From IMG/VR virus record IMGVR_UViG_3300037246_000990, positions 1 through 64,000 of that record: a stretch of DNA of 64,000 bases; one strand, given 5' to 3'. Shown in pieces: positions 33,344 to 63,144 of this stretch; the first letter of the stretch is position 1; the number at the start of each line of letters is the position of its first letter. The notes below the pieces were generated by a model. The model saw nothing but the letters and a program-made list of their open reading frames with translations, did no database searches and was not told the origin of the DNA. The position numbers were made by a program, and so were the translations under genes. This DNA is from a virus.

Positions 33344-33658
33344 ATGAAAGAATGGATAGAAGGTTCAGGGGTTTACAGGGTTCCAGTCGAGGAACTCCCT
33401 AAGGATGCGTGGTTTGTCAGAGACCCAAAACGGTATGAAAACGAAGAAGTACAGCCTCTTCTGCATATCTGTGAGCAGGACCTAGACACAGGGGACACCA
33501 CGACATGGCTCATCTTGACTGCAAGAGTCCGGTGGGACTTTCATCGCGGCCTTTATTACTGTACAGGGTGCAAAAAGACATGGAACTCAACAAACGAGAA
33601 TGGGTTAAGAGCTATCTGGAGCGATGGTTTAGGCACGGGCGACGAAGGTCTGGCTTGA
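33344..33658 (+). CDS. H-C/C-x2-C small protein family, member 1
   Basis: 104 aa. This family, which I do not recognise, shares a short N-terminal segment, an H-x(0-2)-C, then C-x2-C and a hydrophobic end. Here LLHIC supplies His and Cys, YYCTGC the Cys pair, and NGLRAIW the end segment. The N-terminal W/F motif is less clear (DAWFVRD). The extra C-terminal tail overlaps the next gene in another frame. Promoter-proximal gene of the right arm. A single zinc site is inferred from the ligands. Confidence 0.7.
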   Translation: MKEWIEGSGVYRVPVEELPKDAWFVRDPKRYENEEVQPLLHICEQDLDTGDTTTWLILTARVRWDFHRGLYYCTGCKKTWNSTNENGLRAIWSDGLGTGDEGLA

Positions 33659-34026
33659 GAAACTACCACCGGAAGACGCTCATCCGCAAGGAGATGTGGC
33701 CCCAGATCGACGACTGGTACTGGTGCCCGAAACCCATCATCGATGAGAGGGTCCAGAAGGAGGATGACAGACTGAACATCATTGCTAGAGCCTCTCCGAT
33801 CTGGTTTGCGTTCGAATCGTGGAAGGCCCTACAATACGCATTAGGGTCCCGATTGGCACATGCTTGTGATGATGGCAGGATCAGGGCTGCATCGTGGGTG
33901 GAATACTACAGGGGCAAAGGAGGAAGTATCGGTATCTACGGTAAATGCCGACACTGTGAGGAGACCCTTTCTGATGGGATTAAAGGTATCATCATCATGG
34001 AGGAGGAGCTAGGATGGGAAACATAG
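33580..34026 (+). CDS. H-C/C-x2-C family, member 2
   Basis: 148 aa from ATG 33580. Much longer N-terminus than other members, basic (REWVKSYLERWFRHGRRR) and aromatic (DDWYWCPK). Family part: LAHACD, then CRHC, then DGIKGIIIM. Long overlap (79 bases) with member 1 in another frame. A later start is possible, since no strong ribosome site precedes 33580. Confidence 0.6.
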   Translation: MELNKREWVKSYLERWFRHGRRRSGLRNYHRKTLIRKEMWPQIDDWYWCPKPIIDERVQKEDDRLNIIARASPIWFAFESWKALQYALGSRLAHACDDGRIRAASWVEYYRGKGGSIGIYGKCRHCEETLSDGIKGIIIMEEELGWET

Positions 34027-34349
34027 CCCGCACCATTCGTCGTGCTGGACCACTCCGCTTTACCGCCGACTGGAGCTGTAGCACCGTCTATCAACGCGTC
34101 CCTTCCAAAGAAGAGACGCAAAAGTCGCAAACTTCGATAAAGAAAATAGCCGAGAGGGTATACCTCGTTAAGTACAACTCAGTCGCGCATGAGATGCTCG
34201 TCCACCTCTGCGAGGATCGAGGAGACTACAAAGAGATGACATTCCGTGAGAACGACGACGGCCCGATGTATTGGTGTGAAGGGTGTGGGTTCGTTCTCGA
34301 TGACGGTACAGCGATGGCAATACGACTTTACGAAGCACCGATTTCATAG
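34014..34349 (+). CDS. H-C/C-x2-C family, member 3
   Basis: 111 aa. TADWSCS may be the N-terminal motif; LVHLCED and YWCEGC are the four ligands; DDGTAMAIRL replaces the usual P-x2-I-x-G segment, so this is one of the most diverged copies. Overlaps member 2 by 13 bases. Confidence 0.65.
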   Translation: MGNIARTIRRAGPLRFTADWSCSTVYQRVPSKEETQKSQTSIKKIAERVYLVKYNSVAHEMLVHLCEDRGDYKEMTFRENDDGPMYWCEGCGFVLDDGTAMAIRLYEAPIS

Positions 34350-34357
34350 GAGACAAC

Positions 34358-34564
34358 ATGGGTAAACGAAGACGCAATCCGAAAACAATCCTTGCAGGAG
34401 CAATAGGGTTCTCGAAAATACGTTACTGCCCGGATCACAACAAGCCTGTGAAGGCCGTGAGACTGTTCGGCAGAAAAAGTATGATGTTCCACTGTGCCGA
34501 AGGCTGCAAGCTGGACAAGAACAGAACCGTCCTCAAGGTGCCGGAAGGCCCCCAGAAACGATAA
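34358..34564 (+). CDS. Small basic Cys/His protein
   Basis: 68 aa. Not a clear family member: CPDH, then FHCAEGCKLDKN, with basic ends (MGKRRRNPKT and GPQKR). The Cys/His layout suggests another small metal site, possibly a nucleic-acid binder. TAGGAGACAAC is a strong ribosome site. Confidence 0.6.
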   Translation: MGKRRRNPKTILAGAIGFSKIRYCPDHNKPVKAVRLFGRKSMMFHCAEGCKLDKNRTVLKVPEGPQKR

Positions 34565-34947
34565 TGCCGGATATAATGCTGAAGTACGGCTGCACAGAAG
34601 ACCAAATCCGATTCGAAATGGATGACTGGGCGTTGGTCGCTACGCCCGTAGGTCACGAAGGATTGGACTGTGTGCATGGATGCCACCGCAAAGACAGCAT
34701 AGGCATAGTCATTCAGTGGAGCTACGCGATACCGGGCGATCCGAATTGCCCTGGTTGTGACGCGGTCATGCCTGATGAGGTACAGGGCTTGTTCCAAATG
34801 GCAAATGCAGACTATATAGGGCGGATCCCTATTGGTTGGTACAAGCAAGAGATCGAACGTGGCGTCGCCAAAAGCTTCGCCCAACTCGAGAAGCAATACT
34901 TCCTCAGCGGGTCAGGGTATAAGTACGACCCCAAGGAGGAGGCATGA
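34564..34947 (+). CDS. H-C/C-x2-C family, member 4
   Basis: 127 aa. MDDWALV, CVHGCHR, CPGC, MPDEVQGLFQM: a complete set. Followed by a unique tail of about 45 residues (IGWYKQEIERGVAKSFAQLE). Start overlaps the previous stop (TAATG). Confidence 0.75.
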   Translation: MPDIMLKYGCTEDQIRFEMDDWALVATPVGHEGLDCVHGCHRKDSIGIVIQWSYAIPGDPNCPGCDAVMPDEVQGLFQMANADYIGRIPIGWYKQEIERGVAKSFAQLEKQYFLSGSGYKYDPKEEA

Positions 34948-35480
34948 GCGGATACCACCAGATGATTAAGGATCTCATGACGAGACCTAAGATACCGGCC
35001 AGCCTTCACACAGTGGGCAAATGGGCTATACCCACAGAAAGCGCAATGCTTTTTACGGCAGGCGGGCACCCTGTTCAACCACCGCCACCTCCACATACAC
35101 TGATCTACAACGACAAAGACCCGGACTACAATCCTCATTTCGAAGACCTAAAAGAAGTAACCTGTGAAATCCTTTTTGAACTCGACGGGTGGCAAATCGA
35201 GCACTACGAAGGTACCCCTACCCCATCTGAAGTGGATTGGATCTCGCACGACTGCCCGGTAGAGAAATGGCGCTATCGCATCGATCAATGGCAATTGATG
35301 GGCGACGGCGTATGCCCTGCTTGTTGCACACCCGTTCCGGACGAGGTGATGGGATTATGGAAACTAAAGAACTTCGACAAACTCCCCGCAATGGAAGAAG
35401 CGAGACACATGAGCCACGTACGTATCTATCCGGATAGCCACACGCCTGAAGATGCAGAAGGAGATATGCCGTGGGTCTAG
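34944..35480 (+). CDS. H-C/C-x2-C family, member 5 (long N-terminus)
   Basis: 178 aa, the longest member. About 80 extra N-terminal residues, including a proline run (VQPPPPPH). Family part: LDGWQIE, ISHDCPV, CPACC, PVPDEVMGLWKL. ATGA coupling with member 4. Confidence 0.75.
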   Translation: MSGYHQMIKDLMTRPKIPASLHTVGKWAIPTESAMLFTAGGHPVQPPPPPHTLIYNDKDPDYNPHFEDLKEVTCEILFELDGWQIEHYEGTPTPSEVDWISHDCPVEKWRYRIDQWQLMGDGVCPACCTPVPDEVMGLWKLKNFDKLPAMEEARHMSHVRIYPDSHTPEDAEGDMPWV

Positions 35481-35752
35481 AAGATCTCTTCTTGTACAAC
35501 GACACACCTATAATCGAGGAAGGAACATGGAGACTCCTCGCACCTACTAAATGGGGTGTGAAATGGAAACACCTTTCCGAAGCACCTATCGTGATTCACG
35601 TATGCCCTAAAGCTCCTTTATATGCGGGGGAGCGTGAAGTCAGCTCTAACCGCATGAAAGACTCCCCATACTGCACGATATGCAAAGAAGAGGTCCCTGA
35701 GAGCATCCAAGCCGTATGGCAGATGACACATATGGAGGCAATGTTAGGATGA
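35471..35752 (+). CDS. H-C/C-x2-C family, member 6 (GTG start)
   Basis: 93 aa, GTG start at 35471 inside the end of member 5. EGTWRLL, VIHVCPK, YCTIC, VPESIQAVWQM. Two Pro in the middle loop. All ligands intact. Confidence 0.75.
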   Translation: MGLEDLFLYNDTPIIEEGTWRLLAPTKWGVKWKHLSEAPIVIHVCPKAPLYAGEREVSSNRMKDSPYCTICKEEVPESIQAVWQMTHMEAMLG

Positions 35753-36024
35753 ACCCCTTTTCTCTAGCCAACTACGAATGCGTAATGGAAGATGAGACTT
35801 GGTACCTAGTCCGAAACAATTGGTCACGCAACTACAACCTACGCCATTACTGCGCTGATGGGGAGATGGACGACCTCTGTGCGAGGTACCGCTGGGATGA
35901 GTTCCAGCGGGCTTGCCGGAGATGTGGGAGCCTCCCGAGCAAAGAGATCCAAGGGATGTACGTCATGTTGACAGGAGACATGGACGCTGCCCCTCGGTGT
36001 GTACCAGAAGGGACAAAGTACTAG
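35749..36024 (+). CDS. H-C/C-x2-C family, member 7
   Basis: 91 aa from ATG 35749 (ATGA overlap; an in-frame codon 33 bases earlier is less likely). DETWYLV, LRHYCAD, ACRRC, SKEIQGMYVML, with a short tail DMDAAPRCVPEG that adds another Cys. Confidence 0.75.
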   Translation: MNPFSLANYECVMEDETWYLVRNNWSRNYNLRHYCADGEMDDLCARYRWDEFQRACRRCGSLPSKEIQGMYVMLTGDMDAAPRCVPEGTKY

Positions 36025-36032
36025 GAGACGCT

Positions 36033-36374
36033 ATGACGTACCAACCGACAGCGTACATGAGCATGCTACAGCGAGAAGGCCGATTCCGGTTGTTGAAGAG
36101 CAAGCTGAGCAAAGACGTCCGGATCTGGCATAACTGCGAGACCTACGGCGACGCAGAACTCGTCAAGCACCGTACCGTCTACGTATGCCAGTACGGCGAC
36201 TGGGAACAGTTCGATTCTAGTCCGGATGAGCATGGCTGGCGCTGCACGATGTGCAACGCTCTCAGCCCTGAAGGGTTAACTGGAATCTACATCATGCTGG
36301 ACTGGGACCGCGCTACAAACGAAATCGCAAACGTTTCAGAGCAAATGTCCGAGTATGAGGCGTTACCGTTTTGA
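36033..36374 (+). CDS. H-C/C-x2-C family, member 8
   Basis: 113 aa from ATG 36033 behind AGGAGACGCT. EGRFRLL, WHNCET, RCTMC, SPEGLTGIYIML, then an acidic tail. One of few array members with a free-standing ribosome site rather than a stop overlap. Confidence 0.75.
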   Translation: MTYQPTAYMSMLQREGRFRLLKSKLSKDVRIWHNCETYGDAELVKHRTVYVCQYGDWEQFDSSPDEHGWRCTMCNALSPEGLTGIYIMLDWDRATNEIANVSEQMSEYEALPF

Positions 36375-36638
36375 GTGACTACCGTGAGTAGCTTCCTCGA
36401 CGAGCAGATCCTGTGGGAGGATGACGGGTTCATCATCATCACCGATCACTACATCGATCCTGGCCGGGAGGGATTACCGACTGCCACGTTGTGGCACCGA
36501 TGCCGTGACAAGACAGACGATGCCAGCGTGATATGCCGCCCGCAAGAATACCCATGGTGCTCTGGTTGTCACCTTCATGTTCCTGCTGAGCTGGTTGGGT
36601 TCTGGGAGCTGGTGCGATACGGGCAGGAGCAAGGATGA
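36375..36638 (+). CDS. H-C/C-x2-C family, member 9 (GTG start)
   Basis: 87 aa, GTG directly after the previous TGA. DDGFIII, LWHRCRD, WCSGC, VPAELVGFWEL. Strongly acidic first half (LDEQILWEDDG). Confidence 0.7.
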   Translation: MTTVSSFLDEQILWEDDGFIIITDHYIDPGREGLPTATLWHRCRDKTDDASVICRPQEYPWCSGCHLHVPAELVGFWELVRYGQEQG

Positions 36639-37087
36639 GTTTATCTAACATGATTAACGTGAGAGACGTATGGAAAGACCAAGCCGAGTACATCGAAAAA
36701 GAGTACGGCGATGAGAAGCTCAAACGAGGCCGGTGGAGAGTCATCCAGTACTCCGTACACCACAGCGATGTAGGAGAGCACGGACTCTGGCACCAGTGTG
36801 AAAAGACAGAATGGGAGATGTACCTTTGTGAGTACCGAGCCGACGTAGGGTCTGACTCTAGTTTCAATGGGACCCGGAAGATCAAGCCCAACTGGCACTG
36901 CGAGAACTGCTTCGCAGTTCCACCCGCAAGCATCGTTGCTGTCTGGTGCCTGCTAGAGCCTGACGTAACCTCCGCGGAGGTGAGCACAGCCTTGAAGCTA
37001 CGCGCCGATATAGACGACGAAGAAAGGTATGATAACGTATGTTGGCAAAGCAGGCAGGTCCCCCTCCCGTACAAAGGGCCCTACTAA
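36635..37087 (+). CDS. H-C/C-x2-C family, member 10
   Basis: 150 aa. RGRWRVI, WHQCEK, HCENC, PPASIVAVWCL, then a 40-residue acidic tail (EVSTALKLRADIDDEERYDN). ATGA overlap with member 9. Confidence 0.75.
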   Translation: MSLSNMINVRDVWKDQAEYIEKEYGDEKLKRGRWRVIQYSVHHSDVGEHGLWHQCEKTEWEMYLCEYRADVGSDSSFNGTRKIKPNWHCENCFAVPPASIVAVWCLLEPDVTSAEVSTALKLRADIDDEERYDNVCWQSRQVPLPYKGPY

Positions 37088-37347
37088 TGGATACCCTGGA
37101 CGTCTACAAAACTGACGGGGACTGGCGGTTGTCTCGCAGGTGCGCCGGGACAAAGATGCGGCATACGTTCCTAGAGCACAACTGCGGTTACGAAGACCCC
37201 CGGGCAGTGGTACAACCTAGCAAACGGTACTGGCATGCGCTTATCTACACCGTCGAGGCCCGAAACCAGGCTTGTGCTCTTTGTCAGACCCGGGCTTCAG
37301 ACGGCCTCCAAGCGATATTCTGGATCATGAAAGAGGAGCCCATATGA
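37087..37347 (+). CDS. H-C/C-x2-C family, member 11
   Basis: 86 aa from ATG 37087 (TAATG overlap). DGDWRLS, LEHNCGY, ACALC, SDGLQAIFWIM. From here to member 16 the members are alike in length and C-terminus, marking a younger subgroup. Confidence 0.78.
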   Translation: MDTLDVYKTDGDWRLSRRCAGTKMRHTFLEHNCGYEDPRAVVQPSKRYWHALIYTVEARNQACALCQTRASDGLQAIFWIMKEEPI

Positions 37348-37583
37348 CTGACGTCAAAACGGTCCGCTTTGAAGATGGACTTTTCAGGCTATCCCGGTAC
37401 CGATACAAGGGCGGGTTTGACTGGTGGTTCATCGAGCACCGGTGTGGCCGTGGAGGCCACTGGAAATGGTTTAGTGGGGTCCCGGAAGACTGCCACGCAC
37501 CGTGTTGGGCTTGCACAGCCGTCGTTCCGGACGGGCTCCATGCGATGTTCTGGTTCGTGAAGGATGGACAAGGTTATGAATGA
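37344..37583 (+). CDS. H-C/C-x2-C family, member 12
   Basis: 79 aa from ATG 37344 (ATGA overlap). DGLFRLS, IEHRCGR, PCWAC, VPDGLHAMFWFV. A compact form of the family with no extra tail. Confidence 0.78.
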   Translation: MTDVKTVRFEDGLFRLSRYRYKGGFDWWFIEHRCGRGGHWKWFSGVPEDCHAPCWACTAVVPDGLHAMFWFVKDGQGYE

Positions 37584-37842
37584 CTCGAAAACGCAACCCA
37601 CCCCCTTAGCCGCCGAAGGTGGTTGGGGGTTGTATGAGCAAGGCGAAGACACGCCAGACTACATGCAAGGAACCCCTTACTTGTGGTATTTGTGGCATGA
37701 CTGTGGGCCCGAGAGGGTGGGCTGCGCCCAACGATTCATGTACAAGCATATGGACACAGCTTGTTCATGGTGTAACTGCCCTGTACCTGCGGGGCTCCAG
37801 GCGTTGTTCGTCCTGCTGACAGGAGACATGGAACATGAATAA
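37576..37842 (+). CDS. H-C/C-x2-C family, member 13
   Basis: 88 aa from ATG 37576. EGGWGLY, LWHDCGP, ACSWC, VPAGLQALFVLL, with the ending TGDMEHE shared in part with member 7 (TGDMDA). An extra Cys (GCAQ) lies in the loop. Confidence 0.75.
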   Translation: MNDSKTQPTPLAAEGGWGLYEQGEDTPDYMQGTPYLWYLWHDCGPERVGCAQRFMYKHMDTACSWCNCPVPAGLQALFVLLTGDMEHE

Positions 37843-38068
37843 AGAGACTCTGATCACTATCGATGCCTTCCGGATTACTCAACGCCCCTGGAACTCAAGC
37901 TCTGTATATATCGAGCATTATTGTAATGGGGAATACACCGGACGTGGCCCGGGTTGGTTGGTTCACGCTTGCGACACCAGAGCCAGCCAACACCCTTGCT
38001 GCTTCTGCAAAGAGAAACCAGCAGACGGGATCCAGGCCATGTTCTGGTTCTTGAAGGAAGGGTCATGA
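37835..38068 (+). CDS. H-C/C-x2-C family, member 14
   Basis: 77 aa, the shortest member of the array. IDAFRIT, IEHYCNG, PCCFC, ADGIQAMFWFLKEG. The last 31 bases before the end (38030-38060) are identical to those of member 15, suggesting recent duplication or gene conversion. Confidence 0.78.
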   Translation: MNKETLITIDAFRITQRPWNSSSVYIEHYCNGEYTGRGPGWLVHACDTRASQHPCCFCKEKPADGIQAMFWFLKEGS

Positions 38069-38304
38069 CAGTTCTGATCACTATCGGTAAGTTCCGGCTT
38101 ACCTACCGCGACCGCATCGCCTCGGGCATGCGTGATGTCTGCATCGAGCATAAATGCGAAAGCGCGAACGCCTGGCCCATGAAAGGCTGGCATCCTTTCG
38201 TTTACGGGCTCGACTACCGGGGTATTTCGTGTTTCGCATGTCATGCGACCCCTGATGAAGGTATCCAGGCCATGTTCTGGTTCTTGAAGGAAGCCCGTGA
38301 CTAA
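38065..38304 (+). CDS. H-C/C-x2-C family, member 15
   Basis: 79 aa from ATG 38065 (ATGA overlap). IGKFRLT, IEHKCES, SCFAC, DEGIQAMFWFLKEA. Starts MTVLITIGKF, close to ETLITIDAF of member 14. C-terminal DNA identical to member 14. Confidence 0.78.
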   Translation: MTVLITIGKFRLTYRDRIASGMRDVCIEHKCESANAWPMKGWHPFVYGLDYRGISCFACHATPDEGIQAMFWFLKEARD

Positions 38305-38536
38305 ACAAACCCACATTACAGATGGGAACTGGCGCGTCACAGGCTGGAACGACTCAGGTATCTATGCGTATACCATGATCGAGCATTTATGCGTCAAACA
38401 CCCAGACCTCTCTGGATGGTGCGACCTGAGCTACGGCGTTGCGTATCGCGGGATGCCTTGCATGTACTGCAAGAAATCCGCTCCGGGGGGCATCCAGGCT
38501 GTGTACTGGTTCTTGAAGGATAACGAACTGAAATGA
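38297..38536 (+). CDS. H-C/C-x2-C family, member 16 (GTG start)
   Basis: 79 aa. DGNWRVT, IEHLCVK, PCMYC, PGGIQAVYWFLKDN. GTG start lies inside the end of member 15. Belongs to the same young subgroup as members 11-15. Confidence 0.78.
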   Translation: MTKQTHITDGNWRVTGWNDSGIYAYTMIEHLCVKHPDLSGWCDLSYGVAYRGMPCMYCKKSAPGGIQAVYWFLKDNELK

Positions 38537-38832
38537 CTAAAGACGAATGCGAAGTCAAGCTCGAAATGGGCGATTGGATGATAGCGAAGTTCTATGCATC
38601 GAGCGTACACTTCATGTACCACCGATGTCATATTGATAAAGTGTCGTATTACGCAGCGATGTTCCACGAACTGGCGTTCTCTCCAAGAGCAGGATGCTCC
38701 AACCCCTGCTGGGCCTGTGCTGGTTGTGGAGCCTCGGTTCCAGAGGAGCTGGAAACCGTGTATCTACTGCTCGAATCAGAGTACGCGTACGACATCATGC
38801 AAAAGCACCAAAACACCTTAAATAACACCTAA
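38533..38832 (+). CDS. H-C/C-x2-C family, member 17
   Basis: 99 aa. MGDWMIA, MYHRCHI, CWACAGC (three Cys, a C-x2-C-x2-C cluster that may alter the site), VPEELETVYLLL, helical tail. Last gene of the tandem array, before the long non-coding stretch. Confidence 0.75.
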   Translation: MTKDECEVKLEMGDWMIAKFYASSVHFMYHRCHIDKVSYYAAMFHELAFSPRAGCSNPCWACAGCGASVPEELETVYLLLESEYAYDIMQKHQNTLNNT

Positions 38833-40115: not shown

Positions 40116-40137
40116 AGCTGATCTGGCAGCATAGTAA

Positions 40138-40193
40138 CATAGCTCAAAGGCACAAAGGGTACCATTAACGACCTTTGTAGCCTTTGGTCTATG
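40138..40193 (+). ncRNA. Nested hairpin element, copy 1
   Basis: CATAG...CTATG closes a stem; inside, CAAAGGC pairs with GCCTTTG and ACAAAGG with CCTTTGT, around a loop GTACCATTAACGA. Followed 34 bases later by the gene at 40227. Identical over about 60 bases to copy 2. Stem changes in copy 3 are compensatory, which supports a base-paired RNA rather than a chance inverted repeat. Confidence 0.75.
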
Positions 40194-40226
40194 ATGCATA
40201 CCGCATTGTAGCCACAAGAGGGTATT

Positions 40227-40439
40227 ATGAAATACATAACAAAGCCGGAAAAGGCCGAGGCTGAAGTGACGACAAAGACCACCGACGAGGGTGTGAACGT
40301 GATCATCAATGGGTGCGTTGTGTTGGCGTTCAAGAATGGCGACGACAGAGTGCAGCTCATCAAAGGTGTCAGTGAGGCCAGGACAGGGCTTCGGACGGAC
40401 AATGTTGGGCTTGTCTTTGTCAACGTGTGTGCTGAGTAG
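40227..40439 (+). CDS. Hypothetical protein (70 aa)
   Basis: Beta-rich (EVTTKTTDEGVNVIINGCVV, DNVGLVFVNVCAE). CACAAGAGG upstream acts as ribosome site. First gene after nested hairpin copy 1. No family recognised. Confidence 0.6.
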   Translation: MKYITKPEKAEAEVTTKTTDEGVNVIINGCVVLAFKNGDDRVQLIKGVSEARTGLRTDNVGLVFVNVCAE

Positions 40440-40591: not shown

Positions 40592-40613
40592 GTACTAGGA
40601 GTATTTACTGTAA
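40592..40613 (+). promoter_or_regulatory. 22-base leader motif, copy 1
   Basis: GTACTAGGAGTATTTACTGT followed by AA, 49 bases upstream of the ATG at 40641. Consensus with copies at 41132 and 42549 is GTACTAGGRGTATTTACTGT. Followed by a T-rich stretch containing CTTTGCC. Confidence 0.7.
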
Positions 40614-40640: not shown

Positions 40641-40736
40641 ATGATATTGAAATGTCCTAAGTGCGGCAAGACAGTGAAAACGTGGTGGTCGGCTGTCGTA
40701 GGGTGCCTAAGGTGCAGACCACTGACCATTGGGTAG
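40641..40736 (+). CDS. Tiny zinc-ribbon protein (31 aa)
   Basis: MILKCPKCGKTVKTWWSAVV then GCLRCRPLTIG: C-x2-C and C-x2-C, 14 residues apart, the smallest possible zinc ribbon. Preceded by leader motif copy 1 and immediately followed by nested hairpin copy 2 (one base overlaps none of the coding). Ribosome site GAGGTTCAACC. Confidence 0.55.
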   Translation: MILKCPKCGKTVKTWWSAVVGCLRCRPLTIG

Positions 40737-40792
40737 CATAGCTCAAAGGCACAAAGGGTACCATTAACGACCTTTGTAGCCTTTGGTCTATG
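40737..40792 (+). ncRNA. Nested hairpin element, copy 2
   Basis: Same sequence as copy 1 from CATAG to ATGCA. Starts directly after the stop of the 31-aa gene and lies 33 bases before the ATG of the gene at 40826. Identity to copy 1 means recent duplication or strong constraint. Confidence 0.75.
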
Positions 40793-40825
40793 ATGCACTG
40801 GGTATCATAGTCACAGGAGTGTCAA

Positions 40826-41074
40826 ATGAAAGTTCATATGGTAGTCCGCATAGATAGCTATGGTGTCACAATCATCGGGCCATTCAAAGACCGCGAAGCA
40901 GCCAAGCAGTATCAGGAGCGCAGAGTCAAGCTTCTGAGAGAGGAAGAGGTCAAAGGGATAAGTCTTCGAGGGGGAGTGGCGTTCCTCATCAATACGGTCA
41001 ACGAGCCCATAGAATCACTGATGGTCGAAGAGGCCAAAGCCAAGACCTGTGGCTGCTGTGAGCACGGGAAGTAG
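40826..41074 (+). CDS. Hypothetical protein with C-terminal CGCC
   Basis: 82 aa. VRIDSYGVTIIGPFKDREAA is an alpha/beta start (the GPF text recurs at 41575), then a helix and ISLRGGVAFLINTVNEPIES. Ends KTCGCCEHGK, a C-x-C-C tail also seen at 41800 and 46512. ACAGGAGTG upstream. Function unknown. Confidence 0.6.
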   Translation: MKVHMVVRIDSYGVTIIGPFKDREAAKQYQERRVKLLREEEVKGISLRGGVAFLINTVNEPIESLMVEEAKAKTCGCCEHGK

Positions 41075-42604: not shown

Positions 42605-42682
42605 ATGATCGTTTTCATCTGTGTTGTCGTGGTTCTAGGTGTGACCAGTGCTGCCTCGTTGTGGTGGGGCTCTGAGGCATGA
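42605..42682 (+). CDS. Tiny membrane peptide (25 aa)
   Basis: MIVFICVVVVLGVTSAASLW then WGSEA: a single hydrophobic helix. Strong ribosome site ATAGGAGAC; ATGA overlap with the next family member. Directly under leader motif copy 3, so this is probably translated. Confidence 0.5.
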   Translation: MIVFICVVVVLGVTSAASLWWGSEA

Positions 42683-42918
42683 CAACTCAGTACGTTATCT
42701 CAGCGCTGTTCACACTGGGTGACTGGTGTATCAGCAGCGACCCAACGGCACTACCTCGACACTATGCAGCTCATCGCTGTCCTGGTAAACACACGTACAC
42801 AACATGGGCTTGGGCTGTACCAGACTCTAGATTTAACAGGTTCGTGTGTTACTACTGCCATGAGTCTGTGCCTGATGAGATACAAGGGCTACTGGTCTTG
42901 CTCTCATCAAAGATATAA
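42679..42918 (+). CDS. H-C/C-x2-C family, member 18
   Basis: 79 aa. FTLGDWCIS, AAHRCPG, VCYYC, VPDEIQGLLVLL. Shares the LFTLGDW start with members 19 and 20, forming a second subgroup. Coupled to a tiny membrane peptide. Confidence 0.78.
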   Translation: MTTQYVISALFTLGDWCISSDPTALPRHYAAHRCPGKHTYTTWAWAVPDSRFNRFVCYYCHESVPDEIQGLLVLLSSKI

Positions 42919-43561: not shown

Positions 43562-43567
43562 CAGTTC

Positions 43568-43623
43568 GATAGCTCAATGGCACAGAGGGTACCATCAGCG
43601 ACCTCTGGAGCCATTGGCCTATG
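43568..43623 (+). ncRNA. Nested hairpin element, copy 3 with compensatory changes
   Basis: ATAG/CTAT, CAATGGC/GCCATTG and CAGAGG/CCTCTG around loop GTACCATCAGCGA. Compared with copies 1 and 2, an A-T pair became T-A in the middle stem and an A-T pair became G-C in the inner stem. Lies 31 bases before the gene at 43654. Confidence 0.75.
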
Positions 43624-43653
43624 GTGCATGAGGTGCCATGTAGAGGAGACAAC

Positions 43654-43818
43654 ATGAAACAAATAGAACGAATGTGGTTCAAGAAGGCTCTGAGACTGGC
43701 AACCAGAGGCCCCAAGGGTAGCAAGGGTGTCTGGGTGTACTTGGAGAACGACAAGAGGCCGACGCTGGTGCATCCGAACTACAGCCTGTCCCGAGGGCTG
43801 ATCCAGGGGAGGTGGTAG
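43654..43818 (+). CDS. Small basic protein (54 aa)
   Basis: From ATG 43654 (AGAGGAGACAAC). MKQIERMWFKKALRLATRGP then VWVYLENDKRPTLVHPNYSL. Downstream of nested hairpin copy 3. Not recognised. Confidence 0.55.
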   Translation: MKQIERMWFKKALRLATRGPKGSKGVWVYLENDKRPTLVHPNYSLSRGLIQGRW

Positions 43819-44128: not shown

Positions 44129-44350
44129 ATGGTAGACCTAGAAGCAGACATCGAAGGCTTGAAGGCTAAGATCGAGGCGCTTCAAAGATCAAAGAGGCGT
44201 ATGATCAAGGCTCACATGGGTCTCATCAAGGAGAACAAACGCAAGAAGAGGCAAGCTAAGAGGCTGGCCCAGATGCTGGAAGCAGGAGAAAATCTCTACG
44301 GTAGCTACGCAGACTGGACAGCGGAGCAGTTCGGAGAGGCACCGAAGTGA
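44129..44350 (+). CDS. Coiled-coil protein (73 aa)
   Basis: VDLEADIEGLKAKIEALQRS and MGLIKENKRKKRQAKRLAQM are a basic coiled coil; the end LYGSYADWTAEQFGEAPK is different. TAGGAGACACG upstream. Next gene starts inside its end. Confidence 0.6.
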   Translation: MVDLEADIEGLKAKIEALQRSKRRMIKAHMGLIKENKRKKRQAKRLAQMLEAGENLYGSYADWTAEQFGEAPK

Positions 44351-44625
44351 CAGCCTCGCCCGCTGCTTTGTTTACTCTGGGTGACTGGAGTATACACACG
44401 GACTCGAACACCGTGGAAGGCCCTAAATTCTACGCAAACCATAAGTGTACGAAGTACAACACGCAGCCAGCAGGCCGGGGTCTGTTGGCTGAGTATGTAA
44501 TGAGTCGGTTTGCGTGGGTCAAGGAGGATGATGGTTTCAAGTGCTATTACTGCCAAAAGCATGTGCCTGATGAGATACAAGGGATGCTGCTGATGTTCTG
44601 GTCGGGTATCAAAGGGAGTCGGTGA
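44347..44625 (+). CDS. H-C/C-x2-C family, member 19 (GTG start)
   Basis: 92 aa. GTG at 44347 overlaps the preceding stop. LFTLGDWSI, YANHKCT, KCYYC, VPDEIQGMLLMF. Pairs with member 20: both have LFTLGDWSI and YYANHKC-like text, so they are a recent tandem duplicate. Confidence 0.78.
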   Translation: MTASPAALFTLGDWSIHTDSNTVEGPKFYANHKCTKYNTQPAGRGLLAEYVMSRFAWVKEDDGFKCYYCQKHVPDEIQGMLLMFWSGIKGSR

Positions 44626-44888
44626 TGGCCGAGACTTTGTTTACTCTGGGTGACTGGAGTATCGTGGATAACTATGAAGAAGAGTGCTTTGAGTACTACG
44701 CAAATCATAAGTGTGACCTCAAAGAATACAAGAGGGTACGCAAGCTAACCAACACTGCAGAGGTTAGACCTGGAAGCTATGCTTGGTTCAGCACGGACGA
44801 TCCAAATGTTTGTTACTACTGCTGTGTGCCTGTGCCTGCTGAGATCCAAGGTTTGATGGTGCTGCTCATGGCAGGAGTCAGGAGGTAA
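44625..44888 (+). CDS. H-C/C-x2-C family, member 20
   Basis: 87 aa from ATG 44625 (TGATG overlap; GTG three bases earlier also possible). TLFTLGDWSIV, YYANHKCD, VCYYCC, VPAEIQGLMVLL. Basic central loop (KEYKRVRKL). Confidence 0.78.
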   Translation: MAETLFTLGDWSIVDNYEEECFEYYANHKCDLKEYKRVRKLTNTAEVRPGSYAWFSTDDPNVCYYCCVPVPAEIQGLMVLLMAGVRR

Positions 44889-45057: not shown

Positions 45058-45182
45058 TGCTAAGTGATGTGCAGTTGCTTGAGGCCATAGGAGAGCGAGG
45101 AAAGAATCGAGATACAATACTACGGCTACGCATCGCACTACTAAGTGCACTAGCCTGCTTGCTACTGCATGTGATACCATGA
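45057..45182 (+). CDS. Small membrane protein (41 aa)
   Basis: MLSDVQLLEAIGERGKNRDT then a hydrophobic C-terminal helix (ILRLRIALLSALACLLLHVI). TGATG overlap before and ATGA overlap after. Tail-anchored layout. Confidence 0.5.
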   Translation: MLSDVQLLEAIGERGKNRDTILRLRIALLSALACLLLHVIP

Positions 45183-45493
45183 GTAAACCCGCCGGGTTCA
45201 GGCACTCCGAGATGTTCGTAGACGATACCTACCTAGAGCTAGAAGATAATTGGATGATACATAGGTATCGAAACCTCGGTGGCCGATGGAATGCTGGTGC
45301 TAGACACAAGCACGTTAATGATGCAAGATGTACCGGCACCAACTCAATAGACTCTGTGTATGCCTACCTCGACCATGATGCGGATGATGGCTGGAGCTGC
45401 ATGGTGTGTGGAGAGACAGCACCCGACCGAGTACTAGGGATGGAAAAGTTGGTTCAATACGGTAACAGGTGTGAAAACGAGGAGACACGATGA
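45179..45493 (+). CDS. H-C/C-x2-C family, member 21
   Basis: 104 aa. EDNWMIH, then ARHKHVNDARC (His and Cys spaced further apart than usual), SCMVC, APDRVLGMEKL. Acidic tail. A diverged copy. Confidence 0.7.
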   Translation: MSKPAGFRHSEMFVDDTYLELEDNWMIHRYRNLGGRWNAGARHKHVNDARCTGTNSIDSVYAYLDHDADDGWSCMVCGETAPDRVLGMEKLVQYGNRCENEETR

Positions 45494-50337: not shown

Positions 50338-50643
50338 ATGAGCGAGACACATAAGAAAATTGAGTTGTTAGATGGAGAAACATTACTCCTTGAGTCTGAA
50401 GAGTGGGCTGTTATACTCGACTCCAGCGACGGGCGTGGTGCAATCCTAGCGTATGGGTCACACGAAGAGTGTACGGTTAGCTTTGACCCAAAGCGAGCAG
50501 CTCCTGGTAATAAGTATTACTATGGTGAATACTCCTGGCTGCCAGAGGACCCGCCAACCTGTAAGTACTGTAACGAGCCTGTCCCGGATGGGATACAAGC
50601 GATTGTACACCTAAGAAACTGGGGACTAAGAGGAGAAACATGA
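50338..50643 (+). CDS. H-C/C-x2-C family, member 22
   Basis: 101 aa from ATG 50338. SEEWAVI, SHEECTV (H-x2-C), TCKYC, VPDGIQAIVHL. Long acidic N-terminus. Shares the PVPDGIQA text with the array subgroup. Confidence 0.75.
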   Translation: MSETHKKIELLDGETLLLESEEWAVILDSSDGRGAILAYGSHEECTVSFDPKRAAPGNKYYYGEYSWLPEDPPTCKYCNEPVPDGIQAIVHLRNWGLRGET

Positions 50644-51347: not shown

Positions 51348-51560
51348 ATGGCTAAGAAGAAAGACCTAGACGGTGATACAATAGCAAGGCAAGTGAAAGA
51401 GATCATGGAGCTACGTCGTGTCTTGCATGACTGTGTTACGCAGCCAGGAGCGTTGTGTCTCTACGAGGACAACGCTAGGTACATGAAAGCGCGGTTGGAG
51501 TACATCAATGCTGTCGCAAAGGCAGCAGCGCGGCAACCATTTTTCGAAGAGGAGAAGTAA
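51348..51560 (+). CDS. Hypothetical helical protein (70 aa)
   Basis: IARQVKEIMELRRVLHDCVT and ARYMKARLEYINAVAKAAAR: two helices. AGGAGAAGTAAA upstream. Precedes the AAA+ gene, so could be a small partner of the ATPase. Confidence 0.55.
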   Translation: MAKKKDLDGDTIARQVKEIMELRRVLHDCVTQPGALCLYEDNARYMKARLEYINAVAKAAARQPFFEEEK

Positions 51561-51561
51561 A

Positions 51562-52710: not shown

Positions 52711-52712
52711 GG

Positions 52713-52955
52713 ATGCCTGCCTTGGTACGACAGGGTGACTGGAGGTTACACACAGCTACATCAGGGTCAGGTCGCCTCTATGTTACGCACTGGCATAGCA
52801 AAGTTGGGGGTCATAGAGGGGATTGGTCTCGATGTGGCACCTACAACGGAGACACTTGGGACCCTGCTGCGTGTAACAAGTGCGGTGAGACACCACCCAA
52901 GGAAATGCAAGGCTTCATCAACCTGATGTCATGGGATAGAGGAGAAGTAACATGA
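52713..52955 (+). CDS. H-C/C-x2-C family, member 23
   Basis: 80 aa. RQGDWRLHT, then WSRCGTY (the first His is displaced; WHSK lies earlier), ACNKC, PPKEMQGFINLM. Lies between the ATPase and its probable VWA partner. Confidence 0.72.
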   Translation: MPALVRQGDWRLHTATSGSGRLYVTHWHSKVGGHRGDWSRCGTYNGDTWDPAACNKCGETPPKEMQGFINLMSWDRGEVT

Positions 52956-53155
52956 GATATCATAAACGAGAAACAATACCCGACGACGGTGACGCCCACT
53001 TCTTCCGTGAAGATGAAATACACGAGGCTATTGATAACCTCAATGATTGTTTCTTTCCGGTCAAGATTTCTGTGGTTACCAAGAAAGAATACATGGACGA
53101 TACCTACGGAGAGGGAGATTGGACCCAAGAAGATTGGGATAACAACGAGGACTGA
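52952..53155 (+). CDS. Hypothetical acidic protein (67 aa)
   Basis: MRYHKRETIPDDGDAHFFRE, then FFPVKISVVTKKEYMDDTYG and a Trp/Asp-rich end. ATGA overlap. Not recognised. Confidence 0.55.
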   Translation: MRYHKRETIPDDGDAHFFREDEIHEAIDNLNDCFFPVKISVVTKKEYMDDTYGEGDWTQEDWDNNED

Positions 53156-53184
53156 GTGACTGGGAGAAGTAACGTGGAGGGTGA

Positions 53185-53658
53185 ATGACTAAGAAAACTA
53201 AAGAGAGATTCTGGGCTAAGGTACAGAAGGGACCGAGATGTTGGCTGTGGAAGGCTGGTAAAAACAATAAGGGTTATGGTAACTTTTGGGTAGGAGGAAA
53301 GTGTTGTAAATCTCATCGACTATCTTATGAAATGAAACACGGGTCTATACTTAATGGCATGTATGTATGCCACCATTGTGATACCCCGGCCTGTGTAAAT
53401 CCAGATCATTTGTTTGTAGGCACACAAAAAGATAATGTCATAGATTGTATGAACAAAGGGAGAAACAACAAAGGAAAAAAGATAGGAAGCTGCAACGTGG
53501 GCTCATTACACCCACGGGCCAAGCTGACGGAGGAACAAGTCAAAGATATCCTAACAGACACAAGACTTCATAGAGAGATAGCAAAAGATTATGGTATAGA
53601 TAAATCAATAATATCTAAAATAAAATCAAAGAACATATGGAAGCACGTAAAGGAGTAA
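53185..53658 (+). CDS. HNH homing-type endonuclease (RFWAKV family, copy 2)
   Basis: 157 aa. ERFWAKVQKGPRCWLWKAGK, KSHRLSYEMKHGSI, MYVCHHCDTPACVNPDHLFV, AKLTEEQVKDILTD, then IAKDYGIDKSIISKIKSKNI. Same layout as 32497 and 61434. DNA is A-rich in its second half compared with neighbours. Splits the ATPase/VWA gene group. Confidence 0.88.
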   Translation: MTKKTKERFWAKVQKGPRCWLWKAGKNNKGYGNFWVGGKCCKSHRLSYEMKHGSILNGMYVCHHCDTPACVNPDHLFVGTQKDNVIDCMNKGRNNKGKKIGSCNVGSLHPRAKLTEEQVKDILTDTRLHREIAKDYGIDKSIISKIKSKNIWKHVKE

Positions 53659-53661
53659 ACA

Positions 53662-54879
53662 ATGAAGAAAATCGACACTGACAATCCGAGAGAGAAGCTA
53701 ACAAAAGCTCGGATGCAGCTTCTAATGGCCTTTCCTTTCTTCGGTGAACTTGTAATGCGGATAGTTTTTCACGAGTCTAAAACAGCCGGGGTAGGTACTA
53801 CCTGTATAGATCATAAGGGTAATCTTTGGTATCACCCTGATTGGGTACGTGGGTTCACCTCTACTCAAGAAACTATGTTTGAGTTGAGTCACGAAGTCAT
53901 GCACTTGGTACAGCGATGCACCGTCCGGTTCCCCAACGGGGGCAACCATCAGGTGTGGAATATTGCGGCTGACATCAAGGTAGATAGCATCCTCGTTGAT
54001 GCAGGGATGGCCCAATCCAGGGTGAGTAAGAAGAACATCACCGACGAGATCATGGAGAAGTACAAAGGCAAGACCACGGAGCAGATCTATTACCATCTGA
54101 TCCAGAACCCAGAGGATCAGAAAGACTTTGGTGGTTGCCCCCACCCCGATGGGGAAGGGGGTGAAGGCCCTAATACTAAGCCGGGTAGCCAAGTTGGTGA
54201 TCGTGGCTGTACCTCAGGTGCTTTGCATGGTGAGAAGATAGACACCGAGACGATAGAGAAGTGGAAGCAACACGTTATCGCCGCTGCTATCAATGCAAAG
54301 AACAGGGGTAAGTGCCCTGGATTTGCTGATGATTTCTTGGTTGATATCCGCAGACCCAGCGTGACATGGAAGGATCTCCTCCGAAGGCAAGCTACCTCGA
54401 TGTTCCGTGGTAGATACGGCTACCATCGTGACAACAGGCGGTCCCGTGCCTTCGGGATGAAGCTCCCATCAAGGACACGTAGCCCCAATGGTGCCATCAT
54501 AATGATCGACACCTCTGGGTCTATCAGTGACGACAACCTGTCTCAGTTTGTATCGGAATGCTCCGGTATCCTGAGAGAAACAGGGTGTCAGTTCCTCAAG
54601 ATCTACTTCCATGATGTTGAGTGCTACCACATAGAGGAGTACGACCTCAACACCATCAAGAAGATCAAGGCCACACGGGGTGGCACCTCACACATTGATG
54701 TCTTTGAGAAGGTGGAAGAAAGCCGTGACAAGGTAGGTATGGTGATCGCCTTCACTGATTTAGAGACAGCGTTCCCTCCAATACCGCCTGAGTTCCCGGT
54801 ACTCTGGGCTCACCCGCCTGGATACGAGCAGCATGCAGTGCCCTTCGGGATCAAGGTGAAGGTGGACCTGACGCTGTGA
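53662..54879 (+). CDS. VWA-like protein with metallopeptidase-like N-terminus (DUF2201-like)
   Basis: 405 aa. HEVMH at 77-81 in FELSHEVMHLVQR is a zincin-type HExxH site; WNIAADIKVDSILVDAG follows, as in DUF2201_N proteins. A Gly/Pro-rich linker leads to a VWA-like domain with MIDTSGSIS at 281-289 (DxSxS metal site). Such proteins pair with MoxR ATPases; here the ATPase is at 51562. Function in phages unknown. Confidence 0.8.
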   Translation: MKKIDTDNPREKLTKARMQLLMAFPFFGELVMRIVFHESKTAGVGTTCIDHKGNLWYHPDWVRGFTSTQETMFELSHEVMHLVQRCTVRFPNGGNHQVWNIAADIKVDSILVDAGMAQSRVSKKNITDEIMEKYKGKTTEQIYYHLIQNPEDQKDFGGCPHPDGEGGEGPNTKPGSQVGDRGCTSGALHGEKIDTETIEKWKQHVIAAAINAKNRGKCPGFADDFLVDIRRPSVTWKDLLRRQATSMFRGRYGYHRDNRRSRAFGMKLPSRTRSPNGAIIMIDTSGSISDDNLSQFVSECSGILRETGCQFLKIYFHDVECYHIEEYDLNTIKKIKATRGGTSHIDVFEKVEESRDKVGMVIAFTDLETAFPPIPPEFPVLWAHPPGYEQHAVPFGIKVKVDLTL

Positions 54880-55280
54880 GCCAAGACAGGGAGATACCCG
54901 CGCCGGGCAATGTCCTTCAGGTCGATGGAGAGTGGCAACTTGAAAATCACAACCACGACAAGGGACCCGTCATCAGACACAACTGCGACGACGAAAACAA
55001 CGGCAATACCTACATTATAGACTTGAACCGTGAATTCCCGATGTGCCGCCATTGTGGTGCTGACATACCGAACAGTATGATCTCGGGGTTTAGCTTACTC
55101 AACTACAACGAGTCCACAAACGATGAGTACTTCGTGGATCCTAAGTATGAAGTCCTAGACTTTGTCTACAACGGGCACCTCCGAGAAAGATGGGACAAAG
55201 TGATCGTAGTCGAGGAAATTGACAAAGAGCAGGTACTAGCAGCCATAGCCGAATGGAAAACTGAACAGGAGTTGACATGA
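54876..55280 (+). CDS. H-C/C-x2-C family, member 24 (GTG start)
   Basis: 134 aa, GTG overlapping the VWA stop (GTGA). VDGEWQLE, IRHNCDD, MCRHC, IPNSMISGFSLL, then a unique 65-residue acidic tail (ERWDKVIVVEEIDKEQVLAA). The tail could be a partner-binding region. Confidence 0.72.
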   Translation: MSQDREIPAPGNVLQVDGEWQLENHNHDKGPVIRHNCDDENNGNTYIIDLNREFPMCRHCGADIPNSMISGFSLLNYNESTNDEYFVDPKYEVLDFVYNGHLRERWDKVIVVEEIDKEQVLAAIAEWKTEQELT

Positions 55281-55504
55281 GTGAAGCCGTGCTTAGTGAT
55301 TGGTTCTCAATGGATGAGAAAGTAACCCACTTCTGCGGAGGTACAACGGACGAGAAGAAAAACAACAAGCCGAAAGAGACACAGGTAGAGCTAACTAAAT
55401 GGTTCAACCCCACGAAAACTAAGGAAGATTCCGAGGTGCTAGTATGCCTAGCGTGTGGTGCTGAGCATCAACCGGATGAACCCACCGTTGAAGTTGGAGG
55501 ATAA
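55277..55504 (+). CDS. Small protein, possible degenerate family member
   Basis: 75 aa. THFCGGT gives H-x-C and VCLACGAEH gives C-x2-C, but the N-terminal W segment and the final I-x-G part are missing; it ends DEPTVEVGG. Could be a decayed or truncated H-C/C-x2-C family gene, or a separate ribbon. ATGA overlap. Confidence 0.5.
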   Translation: MSEAVLSDWFSMDEKVTHFCGGTTDEKKNNKPKETQVELTKWFNPTKTKEDSEVLVCLACGAEHQPDEPTVEVGG

Positions 55505-58656: not shown

Positions 58657-58998
58657 ATGATTAAACCTTTTCAAAACTATATGGCAGCATACCAGGCTGA
58701 CAGCAAAGCACTCCTTCACGATGGTAACTGGACTATCGAGAAGCTAAGTGAACTAGAAGAAGCACAGGGCTTCAGGTCACATCGGAGTGATTACTTCTCA
58801 TTGCTCAAGCATGTGTGTTATCCCAAGGGGTACGACGGTAAGGTTCCTTACCCAGAAAACGGGAGCAACTGCGTGTATCAAGTGGTGGTGTACCCCGACG
58901 TCAGATCAGATTGCTGGCGTTGCGCGGCAAAGATACCCGAAGGCATGGTAGCGGTGTGGAAGTTTCAGAATTGGGAGCAACTAAAGTATGGAGGCTAA
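58657..58998 (+). CDS. H-C/C-x2-C family, member 25
   Basis: 113 aa. HDGNWTIE, LKHVCYP, DCWRC, IPEGMVAVWKF. Tyr/Gln-rich N-terminus and a long central loop. Overlaps the next gene by 11 bases. Confidence 0.73.
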   Translation: MIKPFQNYMAAYQADSKALLHDGNWTIEKLSELEEAQGFRSHRSDYFSLLKHVCYPKGYDGKVPYPENGSNCVYQVVVYPDVRSDCWRCAAKIPEGMVAVWKFQNWEQLKYGG

Positions 58999-59680: not shown

Positions 59681-59712
59681 GTTTGCCATCAACCTCGCAA
59701 GGTGGGCAACAG

Positions 59713-59994
59713 ATGCTGACGCTTGAAAAGATCTTTGAGAAACAGATCAGAACCAACATTATTAAAAGGGAAATCCTGTTTGAAGATGGGCTATGGTGTA
59801 TCTACAAAAGAACACCAGCCGACATTAACAGCACACACAGTCTCATCCATAGATGTAGTATATACGTATGGTCCGCAACCCTAAAAACACTTCCGGTCAG
59901 GTGCCCTGAATGTGAAGAGGCAGCACCTGAAGGGATACTGGGGTTGCTTGAGCTGCAACAGTGGGGAACAAAGGACGGTAAGTATGCTAATTGA
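59713..59994 (+). CDS. H-C/C-x2-C family, member 26
   Basis: 93 aa from ATG 59713 (AAGGTGGG upstream; a TTG at 59683 is an alternative). EDGLWCIY, LIHRCSI, RCPEC, APEGILGLLEL. The end overlaps the helicase start. A tiny frame MSKFAINLARW at 59674 may couple its translation. Confidence 0.72.
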   Translation: MLTLEKIFEKQIRTNIIKREILFEDGLWCIYKRTPADINSTHSLIHRCSIYVWSATLKTLPVRCPECEEAAPEGILGLLELQQWGTKDGKYAN

Positions 59995-61453: not shown

Positions 61454-61898
61454 AGACTGGAAGAGATTCTGGAGCAAGGTAAAGAGAGGCCCGAACTGTT
61501 GGGAATGGCAAGCAGGTTGCTGCTCTGATGGTTACGGTAAGTTTTGGTTTGAAGGTCGAAATAGTCTGGCTCATCGTGTGTCGTATGCAACAAGCCAGGG
61601 TATACCAGAAAAGCTGTGTGTCTTACATACCTGCGATAACCCACCATGTGTCCGACCCTCTCACTTGTTCCTAGGGACACAGGCCGATAACGTAGCTGAC
61701 ATGGTAATCAAAAGAAGGCAATCATATAATACCGGCGCTTGTGGTGTCCAACACGGGAACGCAAAGCTCACAGAAGCACAGGTGAAAGCTATCCGCTGCG
61801 ACCCTAGGCTACAGTGTATAATAGCTAAAGATTACAAGGTGAGTCGTTCTACAATAACTTATATTAGGCAACGCAAAACCTGGAAGCACGTCGCATAG
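61434..61898 (+). CDS. HNH homing-type endonuclease (RFWAKV family, copy 3)
   Basis: 154 aa. KRFWSKVKRGPNCWEWQAGC, SLAHRVSYATSQ, LCVLHTCDNPPCVRPSHLFL, AKLTEAQVKAIRCDPRLQCI, IAKDYKVSRSTITYIRQRK. Nearest to copy 1: both share CVRPSHLFLGTQADN and VKAIRCDPR/VRAIRCDPR. Starts inside the helicase C-terminus (20-base overlap). Confidence 0.88.
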   Translation: MLQRKTKDWKRFWSKVKRGPNCWEWQAGCCSDGYGKFWFEGRNSLAHRVSYATSQGIPEKLCVLHTCDNPPCVRPSHLFLGTQADNVADMVIKRRQSYNTGACGVQHGNAKLTEAQVKAIRCDPRLQCIIAKDYKVSRSTITYIRQRKTWKHVA

Positions 61899-61908
61899 GA
61901 ACCCACCA

Positions 61909-62178
61909 ATGGATGCTATAAAGTATGGCCAAGTCATGCTCACAGAAGGTGAGTTCTCCATCAAGGCAGGAATATTTAGTTATTTCATAGTACATGACGT
62001 TTGTGGTACTGGTGTTTATTCTGTAATGAGAGACAGGACCCCAGGGAAACATGATTGGTGCCGACGCTGCTACGACCTCTACGGTAAGAAGATACAATAC
62101 GATGAGAAAATGACAGGAATCGTAGCTCTACTAGATTGGAAAGATGAAGGAGACAGCCGTGACCAATTTGCTGAGTAA
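61909..62178 (+). CDS. H-C/C-x2-C family, member 27 (diverged)
   Basis: 89 aa. TEGEFSIK, IVHDVCGT (H-x2-C), WCRRC, then a longer linker before KMTGIVALLDW. The Pro of the final segment is lost. Still has all four ligands. Confidence 0.68.
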   Translation: MDAIKYGQVMLTEGEFSIKAGIFSYFIVHDVCGTGVYSVMRDRTPGKHDWCRRCYDLYGKKIQYDEKMTGIVALLDWKDEGDSRDQFAE

Positions 62179-62857
62179 CGCAAAGACAAACGCTAAGACA
62201 AAGAAGATGTTGGATGAGTTCGGATACGAAGGGGTCATTCACTACATGGCGCCTGACGTGGTGGCTGACGGAAAACACACAGTATGCCCTCATAGCACGA
62301 TAGGTTGCCGTGAGTCTTGTCTATATACTGCTGGTCGAGGAGCTATGAGAAATGTGCAAGATGCACGCATCCGTAAGACACTGGAGTTCCTCAAGGACAA
62401 GCAAGGGTACGCAGACAAGTTGGTCAAAGAACTGGCCAACCTTGAGACCCGTGCCTTGAAGAAGGGTTACACGCCAGTAGCTCGGCTGAATGGTACGTCA
62501 GACATCCCATGGGAGAACTACATCGACATGGAAGCCCTCCCCAACGTCCGATTCTATGACTACACCAAGGGTTATATGAGGATGCAGAGCTGGCTGCGTG
62601 GGGTGCTACCTTTCAACTATCATCTGACATTCAGCAATGATGAACACACGACGCTTGCAGAGCGGCACTTCATCCTGGCGAAGGGAGGCACCGTGGCCAT
62701 GGTATTCAGGGATAAGATCCCCGACTGCTGGCAGATGTACCCTGTAATTTCAGGTATGACACACGATTTTAGATTCCGTGACAAGACAGGCTGCATCATA
62801 GGGCTACTCGCAAGGGGCCGTGCCAAGCAAGACAGCACAGGGTTTGTGGTGGATTGA
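62159..62857 (+). CDS. GP88-like phage protein
   Basis: 232 aa from GTG 62159, placed exactly after AAGGAGACAGCC (ATG 62144 is an in-frame alternative). VCPHSTIGCRESCLYTAGRG (C-x6-C-x3-C), ARLNGTSDIPWENYID, VRFYDYTKGYMRM, FNYHLTFSND and HDFRFRDKTGCIIGLLARGR resemble phage GP88-type proteins whose three-Cys cluster recalls radical SAM folds. Function unknown. Confidence 0.65.
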   Translation: MTNLLSNAKTNAKTKKMLDEFGYEGVIHYMAPDVVADGKHTVCPHSTIGCRESCLYTAGRGAMRNVQDARIRKTLEFLKDKQGYADKLVKELANLETRALKKGYTPVARLNGTSDIPWENYIDMEALPNVRFYDYTKGYMRMQSWLRGVLPFNYHLTFSNDEHTTLAERHFILAKGGTVAMVFRDKIPDCWQMYPVISGMTHDFRFRDKTGCIIGLLARGRAKQDSTGFVVD

Positions 62858-63144
62858 TGAGTACGAGCAACGTAGGTACACTAAAGATCCTAGTACCTGA
62901 CATACAAGGGTGGGCAATAGTTAAACACCAGTTCAGCGTGACGGGTACTTCCATCCATGGTGAACATTTAATAGGATGCAAACATGCCTTCGATAGACTG
63001 ATAGCTCGTTGGTGCTGGGAGTGGAGCGATGCTGGTGTAGAGAATACGGACCGCTGTTGGGTGTGTAAAGAACCTGTGCCAGAAGAGATCGTAGCGCTAG
63101 TAGCGATGATGAATTGGGAGAAGATACAACGTGGCAAACCTTAA
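62854..63144 (+). CDS. H-C/C-x2-C family, member 28
   Basis: 96 aa. IQGWAIV, LIGCKHAF (Cys before His, order reversed), RCWVC, VPEEIVALVAMM. ATGATG start (ATGA overlap). The reversed C-x-H suggests ligand swap within the same site. Confidence 0.7.
   Translation: MMSTSNVGTLKILVPDIQGWAIVKHQFSVTGTSIHGEHLIGCKHAFDRLIARWCWEWSDAGVENTDRCWVCKEPVPEEIVALVAMMNWEKIQRGKP

Follow-up and report, generated by a model that had tools for sequence, protein, structure and literature searches.

An array of some 30 paralogous small Cys/His proteins behind a putative host-type promoter in one large-phage lineage

Results and discussion

The stretch analysed here, referred to as the window, consists of bases 1-64000 (64 kb) of the 119,599-bp IMG/VR phage record IMGVR_UViG_3300037246_000990. 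Its right arm carries, between 33344 and 63144, numerous small genes whose products share a Cys/His pattern. Judged by sequence, they form one homologous, previously unrecognised and lineage-specific family, with 31 firm members and a weak one (33344) in the whole record. All were located on the + strand, between 33.3 and 77.8 kb, and the family takes up about 8% of the genome. The genes are maintained as separate orthologues under purifying selection and are read below as candidate early host-takeover genes.

Family membership

The 28 members that an earlier note on this DNA had listed between 33344 and 63144 stand, 27 of them as firm members and one (33344) as a weak or degenerate one, according to profile hidden Markov models (HMMs). 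That note would have abandoned the family if an HMM built from five members missed the others; such a model retrieved 24 open reading frames of the window at E<0.05, namely the five seeds and 19 others. In a jackknife with 40 random five-member seeds, a median of 20.5 of the 26 other members was recovered (range 13-24, E<0.01), with one non-member match over all 40 runs and no reversed-sequence match. The iterated HMM found 29 members in the whole 119.6-kb record at E<0.005, reversed proteins giving E-values of 0.04-0.55 at best. When relatives were added (104 sequences in the collection), 34014 and 61909 also reached E<1e-7. A chance motif was ruled out by the jackknife and the reversed-protein controls. 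Gene 33344 displayed an HMM E-value of only ~0.5, while keeping H-x-C...C-x2-C and being weakly matched by a gene of the sister phage described below.

The proteins were 77-178 residues long and displayed 12-46% identity to one chosen member. Within the interval the proposed extent was confirmed; the family does not end with the window, since four more members were found beyond it. The share of the small right-arm genes, put earlier at about half, was roughly 45% for the 28 genes by hand count. The array is composed as follows (E-values from the family HMM).

33269..33337, both strands, divergent sigma-70-type promoter pair in an inverted repeat (TTGCAA-17-TATAAT consensus)
33344..33658, +, weak/degenerate member with HIC...CTGC, first gene of the right arm (E ~0.5)
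33505..34026, +, member; domain lies within the C-terminal half, true start uncertain (E 2e-10)
34014..34349, +, member (E 2e-8 with relatives; sister orthologue 74%)
34564..34947, +, member (E 4e-16)
34944..35480, +, member with long N-terminal extension (E 5e-18)
35471..35752, +, member (E 7e-19)
35716..36024, +, member (E 6e-17)
36033..36374, +, member (E 1.5e-18)
36375..36638, +, member (E 6e-14)
36635..37087, +, member (E 2e-12)
37087..37347, +, member, possible start at 37039 (E 4e-21)
37344..37583, +, member (E 1.6e-21)
37564..37842, +, member (E 8e-17)
37835..38068, +, member (E 2e-21)
38065..38304, +, member (E 4e-21)
38297..38536, +, member (E 5e-22)
38533..38832, +, member closing the promoter-proximal cluster of 17 family genes, 33344 included (E 2e-17)
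42679..42918, +, member, recent copy of the 44347/44622 type (E 1e-20; DNA repeat)
44347..44625, +, member, AlphaFold-modelled (E 1e-21; pLDDT 76.6)
44622..44888, +, member (E 3e-19)
45179..45493, +, member (E 1e-16)
50338..50643, +, member (E 5e-16)
52713..52955, +, member (E 1e-16)
54876..55280, +, member with C-terminal extension (E 1e-15)
58657..58998, +, member, AlphaFold-modelled (E 1e-14; pLDDT 72.9)
59713..59994, +, member, possible start at 59683 (E 3e-18)
61909..62178, +, divergent member with an insert between CxxC and helix (E 0.007; 6e-8 with relatives)
62854..63144, +, member (E 2e-17)
64090, ~65.8 kb, ~67.9 kb and 77474 of the record, +, members past the window (HMM)

Conserved ligands and predicted structure

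Among 102 family sequences, drawn from this phage and related contigs, 100 had the complete motif H-x-[C/H]...C-x2-C; the second ligand was cysteine in 82 and histidine in 18 of the 102. The pattern H-x(0-2)-C given earlier has to admit His as well as Cys at the second ligand. The variable loop, previously put at 20-45 residues, proved shorter: ligands two and three were 12-36 residues apart (median 22). Column conservation was complete for the Cys pair of C-x2-C (104/104) and high for the first His (101/104), the W/F of the first motif (99/104) and the P (87/104). Besides the ligands, conserved positions were confined to W/F, P and hydrophobic residues, and no basic residue was conserved. Ligand conservation supports the proposal that the ligands fit one zinc site. 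Each protein probably has a single metal site, presumably occupied by zinc in view of the four conserved Cys/His ligands.

Structure prediction, which the earlier note had suggested as a check, gave the same layout for two distant members. AlphaFold models were obtained for 44347 (model ma9ae46a436f3, 65-sequence alignment) and 58657 (model m1d2de26e9674, 39-sequence alignment), with mean confidence (pLDDT) of 76.6 and 72.9, respectively; the underlying alignments overlap, and the models are not fully independent. Both displayed two strands with the G-x-W motif, a third strand with H-x-C, a poorly ordered variable stretch, the C-x2-C and a C-terminal helix. Helix-turn-helix elements were absent from both. 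The protein is probably a three-stranded beta-meander with a C-terminal helix, held together by one metal site.

Distribution, duplication and selection

The closest relative was a 119,470-bp contig (G001), here called the sister phage, whose terminase and RecA were 90% and 95% identical to those of the present phage (G000). About 20 more related contigs, mostly short, displayed RecA identities of 53-100%. In prokaryotic genomes, RecA had only 29% identical relatives, found in two metagenome-assembled genomes. Family members numbered 28 in G000 and 31 in G001; among the other contigs, G002 had nine, G005 six, G004, G007 and G008 five each, and G003, G006 and G010 one each. Most of the longer relative contigs carried members. 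The two without a match in that search were ~9 and ~11 kb long, and one of them (G009) has a member according to a broader HMM. A pattern scan of prokaryotic genomes with the family alignment found no relatives at the sensitivity reached, and tblastn of four members against isolated phages gave nothing or chance matches; among 50,697 phage genomes the family had no match of note. Among the latter, a match in Curtobacterium phage Parvaparticeps (E 0.3) lay antisense to annotated virion-region genes and was dismissed.

In the family tree, members of each phage were scattered (30 label changes for the 31 rows of G000) and orthologue groups joined different phages, down to ~56% RecA identity. The tree rests on few columns and leaves many forks unresolved, and only its well-supported orthologue pairs are reliable. 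Scattering and cross-phage orthologue groups together indicate an expansion older than the divergence of these phages, most paralogues predating it. Recent duplicates were also visible as DNA repeats (42679/44347/44622 and 37835/38065/38297). Between G000 and G001, 23 syntenic orthologue pairs displayed 42-83% identity, and several members on each side were without clear partner, pointing to phage-specific gains and losses.

Pairwise Nei-Gojobori dN/dS ratios between G000 and G001 were 0.18-0.45 for all 23 pairs and 0.33 when pooled; 14 other small genes gave 0.36 and 12 large ones 0.15. These are pair averages, and dS was near 1 or above in some pairs. By region, the ratio was 0.26 in the hairpin, 0.20 in the H-x-C strand, 0.39 in the loop and 0.28 in the tail. 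The diversifying selection that had been proposed for the loops, with their dN/dS as the check, found no support, the loop value being close to that of other small genes and below 1. Loops are relaxed and not positively selected on average, which leaves room for episodic or site-specific selection.

Promoter and operon organisation

The virion genes found in this phage were all on the - strand. Family searches located terminase (PF03237) and portal (PHROG 156) in the left arm, and further virion genes occupied 93-119 kb of the record. The + strand from 33.3 kb onwards comprised small genes and nucleic-acid genes, with an ATPase, DUF2201, a sigma factor, GP88 and a helicase recognised by family search and RtcB-, DnaB-, DNA-polymerase- and RecA-like proteins by sequence reading.

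The promoter pair ahead of the array displayed TTGCAA-17-TATAAT on each strand within a 32-nt inverted repeat, and all four hexamers (-35 and -10) were identical in the sister phage. The rightward transcript may be leaderless, since only 6 nt separate the end of the right-hand -10 from the ATG of 33344. From there to 38832, 17 family genes follow in succession, mostly with overlapping stop and start codons, and are accompanied by one unrelated small gene (34358). The array thereby lies behind a putative host-type promoter and apart from the virion genes; phage genes for early host takeover are usually found in this setting, as small non-virion genes under a host-type promoter. The family had a median isoelectric point (pI) of 5.6, with values above 8 in one of 31 members versus 10 of 33 other right-arm genes.

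Comparison with known families and systems

Searches of Pfam, NCBIfam, PHROGs and PADLOC gave no match that was above curated cut-off or consistent over members, and a PDB profile search gave spurious matches only (designed TIM barrels, cytochromes). No match to a known family was worth keeping. PHROG 6795, a Lar-like restriction alleviation protein, resembles the family as a small zinc-motif phage protein and matched one of 32 members (E 0.002); the other 31 gave no match, and the likeness was read as a chance C-x2-C knuckle. Such a knuckle is also what PyrI_C (PF02748) and other zinc-ribbon Pfam families have in common with the family, at most one or two members matching at E 0.017 or worse, PyrI_C under its gathering cut-off.

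In T7- and T4-like phages, small early genes encode host-takeover proteins. Those genes resemble the present ones in being small, early-strand, promoter-proximal and accessory, but are mostly unrelated to one another, whereas the ~30 described here are paralogues of one domain.

The sole precedent that emerged from literature searches was Bacillus phage G, for which a zinc-ribbon expansion of ~35 copies, possibly transcription factors or structural DNA-binding proteins, has been stated (PMC7824862). This expansion was located here at 37 places, a few at 26.2-28.1 kb and most in a tandem block at 352.9-371.0 kb, with 24-44% identity to gp32 (YP_009015343.1), one of the copies. Both expansions comprise at least 30 small divergent paralogues with paired metal ligands in one large phage, mostly in tandem on one strand. 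In contrast to the present family, phage G copies display C-P-x-C...C-x3-C and a C-terminal YWKENDRYL, many of them with long N-terminal parts. The family HMM had no match in phage G (NC_023719), whereas the same search found 29 in G000 and 32 in G001. Homology was rejected by motif, HMM and hhalign (probability 3%, over a 14-residue CxxC overlap). The phenomenon thus has a precedent; as far as the libraries searched reach, the family itself has none.

Proposed role and alternatives

Because the array stands behind a conserved host-type promoter and its products are mildly acidic, the genes are interpreted as encoding early, zinc-stabilised protein binders for host takeover, each with its own partner; from position and charge, this interpretation is given about an even chance. 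Tandem duplication with gene birth and death would have led to ~31 copies in one large-phage lineage. The H-x-[C/H] on the third strand and the C-x2-C before the helix would pin the fold through one metal, presumably zinc, the resulting core serving as a reusable scaffold, and the stretch between the ligand pairs would form a variable surface acting as specificity element. The proteins would be non-virion modulators made soon after infection from the host-type promoter, each binding and altering its own host protein in transcription, metabolism or defence. The varied host or defence targets suggested in the earlier note are a reasonable inference, and such a role finds its best support in genomic position.

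Transcription factors often contain small zinc folds, and the phage encodes its own sigma factor (56519). Sequence-specific transcription factors or RNA polymerase-associated factors, each for a different promoter or phase, would agree with this and with the proposal made for phage G (PMC7824862), but are considered rather unlikely: the median pI is low, with one value in 31 above 8, which makes general binding of DNA or RNA less likely; no basic column is conserved beside the W/F, P and hydrophobic positions; and the models lack a helix-turn-helix. Counter-defence proper, with each paralogue neutralising one anti-phage system and host populations driving turnover, would account for the early position and for copy number and content varying between sister phages. 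It is held to be unlikely, dN/dS not being raised, most paralogues predating the lineage in conserved order, and library searches giving no connection with known inhibitors or with models linked to defence. Lastly, the tandem layout and the recent duplicates could reflect dosage or neutral expansion of interchangeable copies with a generic function, such as zinc buffering or redox. Such copies would not each persist as an orthologue of its own at a constant position in different phages, nor would they diverge to ~20% identity while under purifying selection, which makes this explanation very unlikely.

Several observations weigh against the early-binder interpretation itself. Binding to RNA polymerase or to specific DNA is still possible for acidic zinc proteins. 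Loop dN/dS was not above that of ordinary small phage genes, and the family thus displays no arms-race signature. Promoter calls are consensus matches, found in near chance number over the region, this pair being conserved. Model confidence was moderate (pLDDT 73-77) and low in the loops. Neither model had a meaningful PDB fold match (Foldseek best E 2.3 and 0.8), nor did the first (44347) have one in BFVD (best E 0.64), which for small models of moderate confidence are weak negatives. Either novelty of the core or just its small size could explain the lack of matches, and no new fold is claimed.

Neighbouring genes and repeats

Within the promoter-proximal cluster, 34358-34564 encodes an unrelated 68-aa protein with a different zinc-type motif (CPxH...HCxxGC). 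A further neighbour, at 55277-55504, encodes a 75-aa protein with TH-[FY]-C...C-x-A-C, which was 95% identical in the sister phage, was also present in five relatives and had no Pfam or PHROGs match. Its ligand order is that of the family; a status as founding paralogue is unproven, profile comparison giving a 17-residue CxxC overlap at a probability of 23%. At 51508-54879, an HNH-type gene (53185) and a member of the family lie between the genes for phage ATPase (PHROG 1297) and DUF2201 metallopeptidase/VWA-like protein, and relatives hold different family members at the same place. The region at 51.5-60 kb had no megablast match among 50,697 phage records.

Two repeats were encountered ahead of small genes. 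A 99-nt element, in three copies (40134-40232, 40733-40831 and 43564-43662), folds as a long hairpin with the conserved loop GGUACCAUNANCGACC. The third copy directly follows tRNA-His, and its stem is preserved by paired changes (CAAAGGC/GCCUUUG to CAAUGGC/GCCAUUG and CAAAGG/CCUUUG to CAGAGG/CCUCUG). The hairpin had no Rfam match, and the exact loop pattern was not found in the fetched relatives. An exact 20-nt repeat, GTACTAGGNGTATTTACTGT, occurs at 40592, 41132 and 42549 (chance expectation 0.01 with up to three mismatches) and is a possible phage-specific promoter or operator.

The mostly - strand left arm includes a tyrosine integrase (PF00589; 12734-13513, + strand), which in a 119-kb phage suggests a temperate or formerly temperate lifestyle. 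The stretch 17608-25639, as read from the sequence, is a succession of glycosyltransferase-, methyltransferase- and epimerase-like genes and resembles that of phages modifying surface glycans.

Implications

Early phage proteins, usually one-off orphans, rank among the main sources of hitherto unknown inhibitors acting on bacterial proteins. With one domain and one metal site multiplied ~30-fold, a whole early region could become accessible from just one structure and one type of pull-down experiment. It is a tentative and somewhat doubtful idea that the lineage turned one metal-pinned domain into a general scaffold, with ~30 versions for ~30 host proteins early in infection, and that phage G did likewise, independently, with another zinc domain; if true, the array would be comparable to an engineered binder library. 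Together with phage G, this makes two cases in which small metal-motif proteins were expanded, apparently independently, and why phages multiply such domains therefore becomes a testable question.

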